Shown piece by piece: positions 7,401 through 17,884 of a stretch of DNA of 64,000 nt. Position numbers and translations under genes: made by a program. Source of the DNA: an uncultured bacterium (GTDB lineage: Bacteria; Verrucomicrobiota; Lentisphaeria; Victivallales; UBA1829); contig CASFTV010000022.1 in the NCBI GenBank assembly GCA_949297765.1, positions 1-64,000 of the forward strand. The letters are read 5' to 3'. Numbering within the stretch: the first letter of the stretch is position 1; the number at the start of each line of letters is the position of its first letter. Below the pieces are notes generated by a model, which was not told the origin of the DNA, did no database searches, and saw only the letters and a program-made list of their open reading frames with translations.

Positions 7401-8167
7401 GGTAAAACCTCGATTCCCGTATGTTCGCGATAGGCGTTCTGCATGAGTTTGCGTACTTTTTCCGCCAGTTCCTTCCGCGTTTCCCCGGTCGGGTGGAAAA
7501 GGCCGCAGGAGTAGACATCCACCCGGATCTCCTTCAGGCCCAGGAGCTGCCAGACATGCGGAAGAAGTGTCTGGTCGCCGTACCATGCCGGATTCATTTC
7601 GCCTCCCGGGACATGGTAAACCGTAATCAGCGGGAGCAGGGGGCGACGGTCTTTCAACGCCGCTTCAAACGGTGTCGATTTGAACGGCAGAAGACCGTGC
7701 TGTCCGTCGGTTGTCGTTCCTTCCGGATAGACGATCAGCGGAACTCCGATCGCAAGGGTATGTTCGAATTCCTTCAGCGTCTCCAGCGATTTCGCCGGAG
7801 ATTTCCGGTCAATCCACACCGGATGCGACATTTCAATATACGGCCCGAGCAGAAACCATTTCCGGATCTCCTTTTTCGGCGCAAAACGTACTCCTGTCAG
7901 CGAGGCGTGAACCAGAATATCCACATAGCTCTGATGGTTGGATACCAGCAGGACCCCTTTTTCTTCCGGGAATTCTCCGTGCCGGATCACCCGGATCTTC
8001 AGAATCCGCAGAATTCCGCGCGCCCATTCTCCCGCAAGTTTCGCGCCGAGGGTCACCCGTTCATCCCTGGTCTTCCCGATATGAAGGAGCACTGCCTTCA
8101 GCAGCATGACCGGAAACCAGATCAGGAGCAGCACGATCCGGAGGATTTTCCGGCCGAAGGTCAGCAT
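7397..8167 (-). CDS. 1-acyl-sn-glycerol-3-phosphate acyltransferase family protein (PlsC/OlsA type)
   Basis: The protein belongs to the PlsC superfamily of membrane-bound acyltransferases that esterify a second fatty acyl chain. The catalytic NHX4D box is NHQSYVD near residue 78, and the glycerophosphate-binding EGT motif is YPEGTTTDG near residue 150. One hydrophobic N-terminal segment (residues 7-25) would anchor it to the inner face of the membrane. The 256-residue length is normal. It overlaps the upstream GNAT acyltransferase gene by 7 bp. That pairing resembles OlsB-OlsA for ornithine lipids, so the acceptor could be lyso-ornithine lipid rather than lysophosphatidate (inference). Confidence 0.92.
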   Translation of the reverse strand: MLTFGRKILRIVLLLIWFPVMLLKAVLLHIGKTRDERVTLGAKLAGEWARGILRILKIRVIRHGEFPEEKGVLLVSNHQSYVDILVHASLTGVRFAPKKEIRKWFLLGPYIEMSHPVWIDRKSPAKSLETLKEFEHTLAIGVPLIVYPEGTTTDGQHGLLPFKSTPFEAALKDRRPLLPLITVYHVPGGEMNPAWYGDQTLLPHVWQLLGLKEIRVDVYSCGLFHPTGETRKELAEKVRKLMQNAYREHTGIEVLP

Positions 8168-9033
8168 GGGGAGCCGCAGGACCGGGTTGCGGGCCGCGCG
8201 GCGGAAGATTCCGGCTGCTGTGCCGTCAGTTCCACATTGAAATGCCGGGAATAGCGCTGGGGAAGCTGGGCAACGTCCAGAAGAATGAAAAAGTCGATCG
8301 TCCCGAATTTGCGGTCGAATACCGGCGCTCCGCAGATTTTTGCTCCGAGGCGCAGATATCCTTTCAGAAGCGGCGGCATCAGCGCCCGCACGGAGGGGAT
8401 TGCTTCCGCGGCTTTCCTCATGGTCTCTTCATCGGGCCGTTCCATGCGGAAATCATCCTGAGGCTCGGCATACACCTCCTCCGAAAGTTTTCCGCGGGCT
8501 TTGAGTTCGTCGTAGATCAGCCATCCGTGAGCCGGTTCCGTTGTCTCCAGACTGACGCATCCGAGCAGATATCTCTGACGGCTCCGGTAGATCAGTTCAG
8601 AAATTCCGCTCCACAGCAGAGCGACCACGCTTCCGTTGCGGGAATCCGGAGCCACGCAGGTCCGGCCCACTTCGATCGCCAGCGGTGCGATAGATGCCAG
8701 TCCGTCGATCCGGTATTCCTGCTCCGAATAGAACCCGAGTCCGGAATGCCGGGCGATGGAGCCGAAATGGATCCGGTAGGTCCCGACGACCCGTTCATCA
8801 TCTTTTCGGACCACAATGAGATGGAGGCAGTGATCGTCAAATTCGTCCTTGTCGATCCCTCCCTGCAGATCCTTCAGGCCTTTTCCCTGTTCCAGATTGA
8901 ATACATTGTAACGCAGACGGAATACCGATTCAATCTCCTCATCCGTCAATGCAAATTTAATCAGATACTGGTCTTTTTCAGCGATGACCGGAGGGTTCGC
9001 AACAAGCTCCCTGATTGCGTCCAGACTTTCCAT
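8161..9033 (-). CDS. GNAT-fold acyltransferase, OlsB/hemolysin-like
   Basis: The 290-residue protein matches the acyltransferase family that includes OlsB, which N-acylates ornithine with 3-hydroxyacyl-ACP. Visible family features are FRLRYNVFNLEQG near residue 40, GTYRIHFGS near residue 88, and IEVGRTCVAPDSRNG near residue 120. The ATG at 9033 was chosen over a longer upstream start because AGGGGAGGT lies 6 nt before it. The gene directly precedes a PlsC-family acyltransferase, with a 7-bp overlap, so the two probably make a two-step acylated lipid. Some members of this family are labelled hemolysin-like; nothing here suggests a toxin. Confidence 0.85.
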   Translation of the reverse strand: MESLDAIRELVANPPVIAEKDQYLIKFALTDEEIESVFRLRYNVFNLEQGKGLKDLQGGIDKDEFDDHCLHLIVVRKDDERVVGTYRIHFGSIARHSGLGFYSEQEYRIDGLASIAPLAIEVGRTCVAPDSRNGSVVALLWSGISELIYRSRQRYLLGCVSLETTEPAHGWLIYDELKARGKLSEEVYAEPQDDFRMERPDEETMRKAAEAIPSVRALMPPLLKGYLRLGAKICGAPVFDRKFGTIDFFILLDVAQLPQRYSRHFNVELTAQQPESSAARPATRSCGSPC

Positions 9034-9112
9034 ATTTGCACCTCCCCTTGGCGGAATCTTCAAAATATCGCTTGTTTTTTCGGATTTTACTATAAACCGT
9101 ATTCGGAAAAAC

Positions 9113-10207
9113 TCAAATCGTTTTTTCGTCTTTTTCGCAAAAGAGTGGACGGGACCCCGCCGCACTGCATGCCATCCCGAAGGCGATCATGGTCGCAAAC
9201 AGGGAACTGCCTCCGTAACTGAAGATCGGAAGCGTCAGCCCTGTCGGCGGCAGAAGCGCTGTATTCACCCCGATGTGCAGAAGCGCCTGTGCCGTGAAAA
9301 GAACGCCGGTTGAAAAAATGAAGATCCTGGCTTCCGCATCCTCCGTCCGGAGGGCCATTCTCCGGAAAATCCATCCGACAAACAGATAGCCGGCGATCAT
9401 CAGAAGTCCGCCGGCGACTCCGCCCGACTCCACGATCGAGGCAAACGCAGAGTCGCTGTGCGACAGCGGAAGATACGCATTCGACCAGAGCGCTCCCCCC
9501 CATTCCGATCCGAACACCCCTCCGTGCGCCAGCGTGTATTGAAACTGTTTGATGTGCCATCCCGCCCCGTAAAGATGACTGTCCGGATTCCAGTATCCGG
9601 CGATGCGCTTCATCGCATATTCGTGTTTCAGAACGAACAGAACCGCCGTCGGAACGGCAAGAGCGCCGAACAGCAGAAAAAAGGTCCGGAAATAACCGGC
9701 GGTGCACAGAACCACGGCAAGTCCGAGGAAAAAGACCGTCGCCGATCCGAAGTCCGGTTCCAGAAGCACCAGCCCGCAGAATACCATTCCGCTTCCCGCA
9801 AGATACAGCGCCCGTTTCCGTTCCGGCCACTGCGTCTTTGCGGCAAATCCGCTGATCAGCAGCAGAAACGGCGCCTTCGCGAATTCCGACGGCTGAAGAA
9901 GCACCCCTCCGAGCGAAAACCATCCATGCATTCCGTTGATCGGCGTGCCCAGAAACAGAACCAGCAGCAGCGCCGCCACCGCCGCTCCTCCCAGATACCG
10001 GGCGCAGCTCTTGTAAATCCCGAACGGAATCCGGGAAAGAACCAGAAACAGGATGATCCCGAAAATCAGCCAGACCAGCTGACGGAACGAATAATGAAAC
10101 GGATTTTCCCCGAGCGCCCGCGCACTGTAAATCGAGAGGCATCCGCCCAGCCCGAGAATCGTAAGTCCGAGCGCCGCGCTGAGATAGGTCTGTTCATTCC
10201 GGTTCAT
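9113..10207 (-). CDS. ftsW: SEDS-family peptidoglycan glycosyltransferase, FtsW/RodA type
   Basis: SEDS proteins polymerise lipid II into glycan strands at the division site (FtsW) or sidewall (RodA). The protein has 364 residues and about ten membrane segments. Conserved elements include GWFSLGGVLLQPSEFAK near residue 95, and LPLSHSDSAFASIVE near residue 248. The aspartate in the latter aligns with the essential catalytic Asp of SEDS enzymes. The C-terminal FSYGGSSL is a further family signature. FtsW is preferred over RodA because the gene sits in an mraZ-led cluster. The start overlaps the stop of the PBP-like gene by 4 bp (ATGA), so a stoichiometric complex of the two is likely. Confidence 0.92.
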   Translation of the reverse strand: MNRNEQTYLSAALGLTILGLGGCLSIYSARALGENPFHYSFRQLVWLIFGIILFLVLSRIPFGIYKSCARYLGGAAVAALLLVLFLGTPINGMHGWFSLGGVLLQPSEFAKAPFLLLISGFAAKTQWPERKRALYLAGSGMVFCGLVLLEPDFGSATVFFLGLAVVLCTAGYFRTFFLLFGALAVPTAVLFVLKHEYAMKRIAGYWNPDSHLYGAGWHIKQFQYTLAHGGVFGSEWGGALWSNAYLPLSHSDSAFASIVESGGVAGGLLMIAGYLFVGWIFRRMALRTEDAEARIFIFSTGVLFTAQALLHIGVNTALLPPTGLTLPIFSYGGSSLFATMIAFGMACSAAGSRPLFCEKDEKTI

Positions 10208-10896
10208 GGTCTGCTCGCCTCCCGGATGGAAACGGGGAGGGTGACATCTTTTCCCGGAACGGGCGGCGTCAGAATTTCAATGGTCCCCGGCACCCATGCT
10301 CCGCGGCGGTCCAGCATCACGCGGAACACTCCCGGCCGTCCGGAAAGTTCACGGTCAAACTCCGCTTCCCAGCCGGAGATGCCGCTTTCCCGTTCCTGCT
10401 CCTTCCGGAATTCGGTTTCCCCGATTTTTTTCCGGATCTCCGGATCGTCCACGGTCCGGCGGCGCGGACGGGGAACAATTTCCAGTTCCGGACAGCGCTG
10501 AAGCAGCTGCTGCAGTTTCAGAATCTCTCCCGGCGAAAGATTCCGTTTCAGAAGAATGCGTGTCTCCTCCTCCTCCTCGGCCGGAGGGGTATCCGGAAAC
10601 ACGGCTTTGAGACGGGCGCACAGATCCGTGTATCTTTCCGCTTTCAGACCGTTCTTTGAGAGCGAGAGATCGTGCGTCAGTTCGGTCCATGCCAGTTTGA
10701 TTCCGTCGCGGTCACGCAGCGTTCCGCGCATCGCCGGAATGCCTCCTTCGCGCCAGGCAAGATACCGGCTCTCCTCCAGAAGCCTTCCGCGCTCCCACCA
10801 GGAGTAATAAATCATGTGCGCCGCGGCGAGACCTCCCCAGAGCAGAAGTCCGCACAGAATGATCCCGCTTCGTTTTTTGAACTCCGACGGATTCAT
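10204..10896 (-). CDS. Class B PBP dimerisation-domain protein lacking the transpeptidase domain
   Basis: The protein has an N-terminal membrane anchor (about residues 11-28) and then the N-terminal module of FtsI/PBP2 proteins. The class B signatures RGTLRDRDGIKLA and GISGWEAEFDRELSGRPG are both present. The sequence ends at GKDVTLPVSI plus a few residues, exactly where family members normally enter the transpeptidase domain (GKDV-LTID). The total is 230 residues against roughly 550-700 for FtsI. No SXXK, SXN or KTG motif exists downstream because the ftsW start overlaps the stop codon. It therefore cannot crosslink peptidoglycan. It may act only as a SEDS activator, with crosslinking done elsewhere. 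A frameshift is unlikely given the clean ATGA coupling. Confidence 0.82.
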   Translation of the reverse strand: MNPSEFKKRSGIILCGLLLWGGLAAAHMIYYSWWERGRLLEESRYLAWREGGIPAMRGTLRDRDGIKLAWTELTHDLSLSKNGLKAERYTDLCARLKAVFPDTPPAEEEEETRILLKRNLSPGEILKLQQLLQRCPELEIVPRPRRRTVDDPEIRKKIGETEFRKEQERESGISGWEAEFDRELSGRPGVFRVMLDRRGAWVPGTIEILTPPVPGKDVTLPVSIREASRP

Positions 10897-11162
10897 CTCC
10901 GGATTCGCGGAAGTTCATGAAGATTAAGCGTTGTGCTTTTCAGCGCAAGTTCCGGTGCGCGGACAATCAGATCCTCCCACTCCGTCCGGTTTTCCGACGG
11001 AATATAGGAACTCATCTCTCTGCAGGCCACCCGGCAGGTGTTGACATTCAATCCCCGTCTGGAGCGGTTCCGTTCCCCGTTGATCCTGGCTGAACCCAGC
11101 AGCATCAGGGAAAGAAACAACACGAGAATGCAGAACACATAGCGGACTTTCAGCGGTTTCAT
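10893..11162 (-). CDS. FtsL-like small bitopic membrane protein
   Basis: The 89-residue protein has a short basic cytoplasmic tail (MKPLKVR), one membrane segment (residues 8-24), and a soluble tail outside. Position is the main clue: it lies between mraZ and the PBP-like gene, where ftsL normally sits, and its stop overlaps the PBP start by 4 bp. The tail lacks an obvious leucine-zipper coiled coil and has two cysteines, so sequence alone does not prove FtsL. The ATG is preceded by AAAGGAGA about 10 nt upstream. Confidence 0.65.
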   Translation of the reverse strand: MKPLKVRYVFCILVLFLSLMLLGSARINGERNRSRRGLNVNTCRVACREMSSYIPSENRTEWEDLIVRAPELALKSTTLNLHELPRIRR

Positions 11163-11196: not shown

Positions 11197-11679
11197 TTAC
11201 TGTTCTTCGCGGCCTGTTTCCAGATCGCGCATCATTTCCAGTTCATCTTTTTTCATGGAGTGATCCATGATTTTCCGCTGTTCCGCCTCCCAGCGTTCCA
11301 GCGACCAGAGTTCCACGCCGATTTCAATGCCGACGACCAGCGCGTCCGTTCCGTTTTCGATCGCCGCATGTTCCTTGAACATCTGCGGCAGAGTGATCCG
11401 TCCCTGCGCCGAAATCTTTCCCGACTGCGACCAGGCGCCGAATCGCCGCAGCGTCCGCCGGAACACGATGGAATCCCCGGCGCGCTCCGCAGGATTGCTC
11501 TCCCGCTTCCGCATCTCCAGATAGACCCTTTCCGGATACACCGCAATCGCCCCTTCCGGAAGACAGTGCAGCACAACATCGCCGCCGCGTGCCGTGAAAT
11601 CCTCGATCACCCGCGGACTCAGTTTGATTCGTCCGTTCGCATCCACGGAGCATTTGTCGATCCCGCAGAAAGAGAGCAT
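11197..11679 (-). CDS. mraZ: Transcriptional regulator MraZ
   Basis: MraZ is a ring-forming AbrB-fold protein that binds direct repeats in front of the division and cell-wall (dcw) cluster. Both half-domains are visible: SVDANGRIKLSPRVIEDF (residues 11-28) and SAQGRITLPQMFKEHAAI (about residues 89-106). The 160-residue length is slightly longer than E. coli MraZ because of a charged C-terminal tail. Normally rsmH follows at once; here the FtsL-like gene follows after 34 bp and rsmH is missing. The start has GGAGA about 10 nt upstream. It heads a four-gene operon ending with ftsW. Confidence 0.93.
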   Translation of the reverse strand: MLSFCGIDKCSVDANGRIKLSPRVIEDFTARGGDVVLHCLPEGAIAVYPERVYLEMRKRESNPAERAGDSIVFRRTLRRFGAWSQSGKISAQGRITLPQMFKEHAAIENGTDALVVGIEIGVELWSLERWEAEQRKIMDHSMKKDELEMMRDLETGREEQ

Positions 11680-11782
11680 CCGATTGGTCTCCGGTTTATT
11701 CCATTTTGTTCCAATATATTCCGAAAAATTCCAAAATCAAGCCATTTTAAAAAAAATACGGAAATTTTTTCGGTCTGAAGAG

Positions 11783-17164: not shown

Positions 17165-17884
17165 TCAGTATGCAGTTCCGGTGATGTCGATCATAATCTG
17201 GTTGGTTGGCCAGGTATTGGCGGCGACAAGGGCGGATAACGATTTATTCTGCGCCGCAACGTGTCCGTCGACAAAAAGCATGTTGCAGCGATTGCTGTGG
17301 ACCAGAAAATACGTTCCGGCATAGCTGGTCCTGTACACATCTTCCTGTTTCGAGGCGGCGCACCCCATATAGAAGTATTTTGTCGGCTGTCTGATGGTTT
17401 TCATATTGAAAAAGACCCATCCCGTTCCGACTTTTATATGGGAATTCAAGCCTCCTCCGTAATTTTTCCCCCAGGGGCTTTCCCGGGAGGCATCATAATT
17501 CATGCTCGTGGTTTGGACTTTATAGGTGTTATAGGCATGCTTTGTATCGGTATCCATCTTCATATCCGGGATCGCCGGACATTTTTTGTTGACTTTCTTC
17601 TTGACCAGTTCATGCGTGTCGGCAATGTTCATGGTCGGGAAATAAAGCGGCCGGATCCAGTCATACGCGCCTCCGCTGACAGGAGCGATATCATCATGAC
17701 TTCCCGCGTACATCTGATATTCCGTCCCATGCTGTTTTAAATTGTTGATACAGGTGATCGCCTGCGCTTTCTCTCTTGCCTTGTTCAGAGCCGGAAGAAG
17801 TAGCGCCGCGAGAATTGCAATGATCGCAATTACAACAAGGAGTTCTATAAGAGTAAAAGATGAAACAGGGTTGTTTTTCTTCAT
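17165..17884 (-). CDS. Type II pseudopilin-like protein with H-x9-DG motif (1 of 3)
   Basis: The prepilin leader is [16 protein letters not shown], with the usual cleavage before Phe and a glutamate at mature position 5. A hydrophobic helix ([17 protein letters not shown]) and then NKAREKAQ follow. The C-terminal region has [13 protein letters not shown], a perfect H-x9-DG. Such proteins are processed by a prepilin peptidase and assemble into type II secretion or type IV-like fibres; they are greatly expanded in Lentisphaerota and Planctomycetota. The gene starts an operon with a 1081-residue secreted hydrolase, and an AraC gene diverges from it. AGGAAGGA precedes the ATG, and a TATAAT-like -10 (17917-17922) lies upstream. 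Confidence 0.95.

Follow-up and report, generated by a model that had tools for sequence, protein, structure and literature searches.

A class B PBP-like protein without a transpeptidase domain, encoded beside a third SEDS gene in Lentisphaeria

The window (the whole stretch of DNA analysed here, 64,000 nucleotides) contains a gene for a short class B PBP-like protein that is followed immediately by a SEDS gene. The locus raises the question whether the short protein is what is left of an ordinary ftsI or a complete protein in its own right and, if it is complete, what it could do for a SEDS glycosyltransferase. The first-pass annotation had read the pair as a class B PBP reduced to its anchor and dimerisation domain, joined by overlap to ftsW, and had proposed a SEDS activator that no longer cross-links.

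The pedestal protein

The protein of 230 aa (10204..10896, minus strand) consists of an N-terminal membrane helix and the pedestal. PBP_dimer is its sole Pfam domain (PF03717, E 4.7e-11, residues 53-200 corresponding to positions 2-174 of the 180 in the model), and the last 30 residues form a short tail beyond the pedestal. The anchor was recognised in the sequence as a hydrophobic stretch (residues 11-33) and in the AF2 model as a helix (residues 3-34); the model was built with 76 homologues and has a mean pLDDT of 95.2. No Pfam match to the transpeptidase domain (PF00905) was obtained in this protein or in any of the 76 homologues, and PBP_dimer was the sole match in 75 of the 76 when aligned. 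Because the transpeptidase domain is absent, the protein is described here as derived from a class B PBP and not as a PBP in function. A Foldseek search of the PDB returned first 6pl5_B, the PBP2 of the Thermus thermophilus RodA-PBP2 complex (E 7.1e-11), and third 8bh1_B, the FtsI of FtsWIQBL. The class B PBP N-terminal motifs RGxxxDRxG and GxxGxE are kept. In the RxYP motif the Arg is present in all 80 pedestals and the Tyr-Pro is mostly lost, while the same Tyr and Pro are invariant in 21 of 21 FtsI and PBP2 sequences from relatives, where they would presumably face the transpeptidase domain.

The stop codon TGA of the pedestal gene and the start codon ATG of the SEDS gene share an ATGA overlap. 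The reduction to anchor and dimerisation domain and the overlap with a SEDS gene were thus described correctly in the first-pass annotation (PBP_dimer only, ORF 10204-10896), although its word "fused" does not hold literally, as these are two overlapping genes and not one protein. Natural fusions of pedestal and SEDS were also sought; the two candidate frames of 800 aa around SEDS genes (G192, G037) contain no pedestal and are ordinary SEDS with an open upstream frame. A frame of 666 aa (G181), considered as a longer pedestal, is an upstream extension with the usual C-terminal end.

Pedestal homologues were found in 63 of 100 relatives by protein search, and a profile search detected short forms in most of the Lentisphaeria families tested (123 of 198 genomes, counted from the match list); many of the relatives are incomplete metagenome assemblies. 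The 80 distinct Lentisphaeria loci with the short form come from many families, and at all of them 0-35 residues follow the pedestal profile. The dN/dS ratios of close pairs (Nei-Gojobori) are 0.11-0.37, which indicates purifying selection. In a set of 388 genomes from the phylum, those matches that fell outside the class belong to full-length PBPs, with open frames of 576-944 aa; one frame, of 455 aa, is the exception.

In the source genome, 4.23 Mb in size and 98.4% complete, PF00905 was matched only twice, in each case inside a full-length class B PBP frame (664 and 703 aa), which by score against the E. coli proteins are one FtsI and one PBP2. The complete FtsI lies on another contig (C4) in an rsmH-ftsL-ftsI run with an MraZ domain match just upstream. 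Three SEDS genes are present, namely one RodA-like, one FtsW-like and the gene in the window; the FtsW-like protein has nearly equal scores against E. coli FtsW (134 bits) and RodA (140 bits) and groups with FtsW in the tree. Searches of this genome for GT51 class A PBPs and for YkuD L,D-transpeptidases gave no match; FtsI and PBP2 are its only recognisable transpeptidases. Since full-length FtsI and PBP2 as well as separate FtsW and RodA are kept, the locus constitutes an additional, third SEDS module, and the 230-aa protein adds to FtsI and does not replace it.

These data bear on two explanations in which the short form is incomplete. If an ordinary ftsI had been truncated locally, had decayed to a pseudogene or had been misassembled, the homology of the protein to class B PBPs over their N-terminal half would be explained. 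However, the 80 distinct loci, which come from many families, share one end point, the gene is under purifying selection, an intact FtsI is encoded elsewhere in the genome, and a full-length FtsI, looked for at this locus in the relatives, was found in none of them. The short forms in relatives rule out a pseudogene or assembly fault, the explanation as a whole retains practically no probability, and the earlier view that the gene is not broken was right. Since the pedestals form one clade that has lost the RxYP Tyr-Pro and kept the Arg in 80 of 80, the loss is old. It is also very improbable that the gene is one half of a split enzyme, with a separately encoded transpeptidase domain reassociating with the pedestal. 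Split enzymes exist in principle and nothing specific was found in favour of one here, whereas both PF00905 domains of the genome belong to full-length proteins and neither a GT51 nor a YkuD match is present; an assembly about 98% complete leaves slight room for a missed transpeptidase gene.

The SEDS3 protein and the module

The SEDS gene (SEDS3; 9113..10207, minus strand) starts in the ATGA overlap and encodes 364 aa with a FTSW_RODA_SPOVE domain (PF01098, E 1.4e-66, positions 22-350 of the 356 in the model). Against the NCBIfam ftsW model the protein scored 224.7 bits, under the cut-off of 337.5 bits. Two unrooted trees were computed by quick searches with no bootstrap; in the first, the module SEDS lie on one side of a branch with SH-aLRT 100, apart from RodA (91) and FtsW (87), each of which includes its E. 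coli member, and in the second the 40 sampled pedestals lie on one side of a branch with SH-aLRT 100, apart from FtsI (94). SEDS3 passes as a SEDS protein and not as FtsW or RodA, and the module has a single origin. The neighbour of the pedestal gene is therefore not ftsW, as first annotated, but belongs to a third SEDS clade, the RodA-like and FtsW-like SEDS being encoded elsewhere.

Residues were compared in 69 aligned SEDS3 sequences and are given in E. coli FtsW numbering. The catalytic Asp (D252 of SEDS3, equivalent to E. coli FtsW D297) is kept in 67 of 69, and the clade also keeps W138, Q147, P148, E150, R246, Y379, G380 and G381. Several positions that are near-invariant in RodA and FtsW together are switched: A135 to Met (63/69), R137 to Gly (65/69), F298, which adjoins the catalytic Asp, to Ser (69/69) and N359 to His (68/69), with E306 kept in 0 of 69. 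G272 is replaced by Ala in 55 of 69. Position 270 is Ala in 23 of 23 canonical sequences and Thr in 35 of the 69 SEDS3, including the copy in the window. In E. coli FtsW the substitutions A135T/V and R137H act as dominant negatives and fail to complement (PMC8765783), and Ala to Thr at A270 yields a partly defective protein (PMC8078798). Because the catalytic core is kept and the cavity is changed, SEDS3 is a distinct subfamily; lacking A135 and R137, it may be something other than an ordinary polymerase of lipid II. Its switched residues lie at positions at which mutation abolishes the function of E. coli FtsW, and could be used to probe the role of the SEDS cavity.

The gene order of the module is mraZ2, a small bitopic gene, the pedestal gene and SEDS3. 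The small bitopic gene (10893..11162, minus strand, 89 aa) occupies the ftsL position, overlaps the start of the pedestal gene by 4 nt and is kept in the module. Its product matched no Pfam family; the alignment, inspected by eye, contains a conserved AW..L....PEL motif and no evident leucine-zipper pattern. MraZ2 (11197..11679, minus strand, 160 aa; PF02381, E 1.1e-12) is the second MraZ of the genome. Upstream of mraZ2 lies a candidate MraZ-box-like operator (11694..11736, minus strand) of four direct repeats [T/C]GGAA-N5 (TTGGAA, TCGGAA, TTGGAA, ATGGAA) with an exact 10-nt period, and a sigma-70-like promoter match (11740-11713) overlaps these repeats. The MraZ box of E. coli is TGGGN-N5. 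Arrays of the kind in the window precede mraZ at 30 of 48 module loci, compared with 0.4 expected from mononucleotide shuffles. The array before the dcw mraZ of this genome is of another kind (TAGG, with a 10-nt period), which suggests that the two MraZ copies use separate operators. The boxes upstream of mraZ to which MraZ binds in other bacteria are direct repeats (PMC8475190).

Two further genes on the same strand were noted in the window. Downstream of the module a GNAT protein is encoded (8161-9165; PF13444, E 8e-27), with a weaker match to the FeeM N-acyl amino acid synthase, and the ORF list includes a protein with a prepilin-type N-terminal sequence (17165-17884).

After removal of duplicate loci, a SEDS gene was located directly downstream of the pedestal gene at at least 69 of the 80 distinct loci, MraZ upstream at at least 49 and the small bitopic gene at at least 41; these counts are lower bounds because several loci have short flanks. 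Among near-complete Victivallales (genomes at least 90% complete), three or more SEDS were present in 45 of 47 genomes with the pedestal, and two or fewer in 19 of 20 genomes without it (three or more in 1 of 20); these associations and the E-values are uncorrected for kinship. In the genus g6, for example, the module is missing along with its SEDS: exactly two SEDS were counted in each of 12 genomes and a single match in the thirteenth. Outside Victivallales the co-occurrence of pedestal and SEDS number is not significant because the SEDS copy number is high there. About ten loci carry the pedestal gene and no adjoining SEDS (L042, L060, L061, L059, L064, L080, L050, L034, L035), and one genome with such a locus (G103) has a single SEDS match.

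Proposed working and alternatives

The locus is probably a third SEDS synthase module, in which the 230-aa protein is the dedicated transpeptidase-free partner of the adjacent SEDS3. The predicted working comprises a physical complex, activation, an enzymatic product and repression by MraZ. In RodA-PBP2 and FtsW-FtsI the membrane helix of the partner binds the SEDS protein and the pedestal acts on extracellular loop 4 (PMC8078798). The contact between pedestal and loop 4 controls SEDS activity in the known systems (PMC8078798, PMC10257715); according to a later study, interface II, the contact made by the pedestal, inhibits, and the one made in the membrane activates (PMC10257715). By analogy with these two pairs, the membrane helix of the pedestal protein would dock on SEDS3 and the pedestal would act on its extracellular loop 4. 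Since the partner carries no transpeptidase, the complex would polymerise, or otherwise handle, lipid-linked glycan without cross-linking it. The module would be co-transcribed with its own MraZ, and MraZ2 probably represses it through the TGGAA-N5 repeat operator.

As only FtsI and PBP2 are recognisable as cross-linkers, the strands made by SEDS3 would be cross-linked in trans by these two, left uncross-linked, or would not be ordinary peptidoglycan. A wider proposal, in which belief and doubt are evenly balanced, adds a third type to the SEDS synthases: a SEDS-pedestal pair that lacks a transpeptidase, has a remodelled active site and is controlled through a MraZ operator of its own. Its strands would meet one of these three fates (cross-linking occurring only in trans), and the pedestal, standing alone, would be a minimal SEDS activator of natural origin. 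The earlier idea of a SEDS activator without cross-linking is supported insofar as the protein is transpeptidase-free, travels with a SEDS gene and has published counterparts for the role of its pedestal (PMC8078798, PMC12713402). A reduction of the FtsI/FtsW pair itself is not supported, full FtsI, PBP2 and separate FtsW and RodA being present. If activation and transpeptidation are indeed separated, this applies to an additional, third complex, because the SEDS of this locus is a third paralogue whose active-site residues are switched, and intact FtsI and FtsW are encoded elsewhere in the genome.

Three other readings accept the module as functional. A shift of substrate, by which SEDS3 and the pedestal make or transfer a glycan other than canonical peptidoglycan and so need no transpeptidase, is a real though minor possibility. 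The switches at A135, R137, F298, E306 and N359, two of them at positions where substitution inactivates E. coli FtsW, and the kinship in fold between SEDS proteins and O-antigen ligases (PMC8765783) agree with it. However, the catalytic Asp and most other essential residues are kept, the position behind MraZ and a gene in the ftsL position points to cell-wall and division genes, and the conserved core of the module includes no sugar-pathway genes. The next rival, somewhat less probable, is a regulator: the pedestal, with or without SEDS3, would be a decoy or antagonist competing with FtsI or PBP2 for FtsW or RodA. The orphan pedestals at about ten loci, the resemblance of the SEDS3 changes to dominant-negative FtsW and the candidate repressible MraZ-type operator would fit such a role; the pedestal is nevertheless tightly linked to, and lost together with, the third SEDS rather than FtsW or RodA, and 67 of 69 SEDS3 keep the catalytic Asp. 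It is unlikely that SEDS3 and the pedestal took over the glycan polymerase role of class A PBPs. GT51 is absent from the source genome and from most module-bearing relatives, and the association within the class is negative (Fisher p 3e-4, uncorrected for kinship), but 28 genomes, several from deep families, have both GT51 and the module, 39 have neither, and the association among near-complete Victivallales is not significant (p 0.16). This mixed pattern argues against a simple swap.

Comparison with known systems

It is a live question whether SEDS activation by a class B PBP is independent of cross-linking; so far it has been approached with point mutants and purified complexes. A class B PBP can be required as a protein even where its catalysis is dispensable, and catalytically dead class B PBPs can still serve (PMC12713402). 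A pedestal alone, kept across a class beside one SEDS clade, would be a ready-made minimal activator, and in SEDS3 a SEDS protein could be tested without a confounding transpeptidase. A module working as proposed would mean that strands can be made by one complex and cross-linked by another. No description of a stand-alone pedestal or of a third SEDS clade in this lineage was found among the open-access papers searched. A survey of the PVC group scored ortholog groups as present or absent with multiple copies counted once (PMC12283558), which would hide a third SEDS.

Like RodA-PBP2 and FtsW-FtsI, the module pairs a SEDS protein that keeps the catalytic Asp with a single-pass partner bearing a pedestal; unlike them, its partner has neither a transpeptidase nor the RxYP Tyr-Pro, and its SEDS forms a third clade with switched cavity residues. 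SpoVE-SpoVD and PBP2b with dead catalysis (Clostridioides difficile, Bacillus subtilis) provide cases in which the class B PBP is still an allosteric activator (PMC12713402), as proposed here for the pedestal. In those proteins, however, the domain is present and either inactivated by laboratory mutation or redundant in its catalysis, whereas the pedestal proteins of the module lack it naturally, and do so across a class. RagB (YrrS) of B. subtilis stimulates SEDS and has no transpeptidase activity (PMC12457691); it is not a class B PBP and is likened to the pedestal by role only. The order of mraZ, a gene in the ftsL position, a PBP-like gene and a SEDS gene in one operon recalls the dcw cluster (mraZ-rsmH-ftsL-ftsI ... 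ftsW), from which the module differs in having no rsmH and no mur genes and in being a second copy beside intact dcw genes on another contig.
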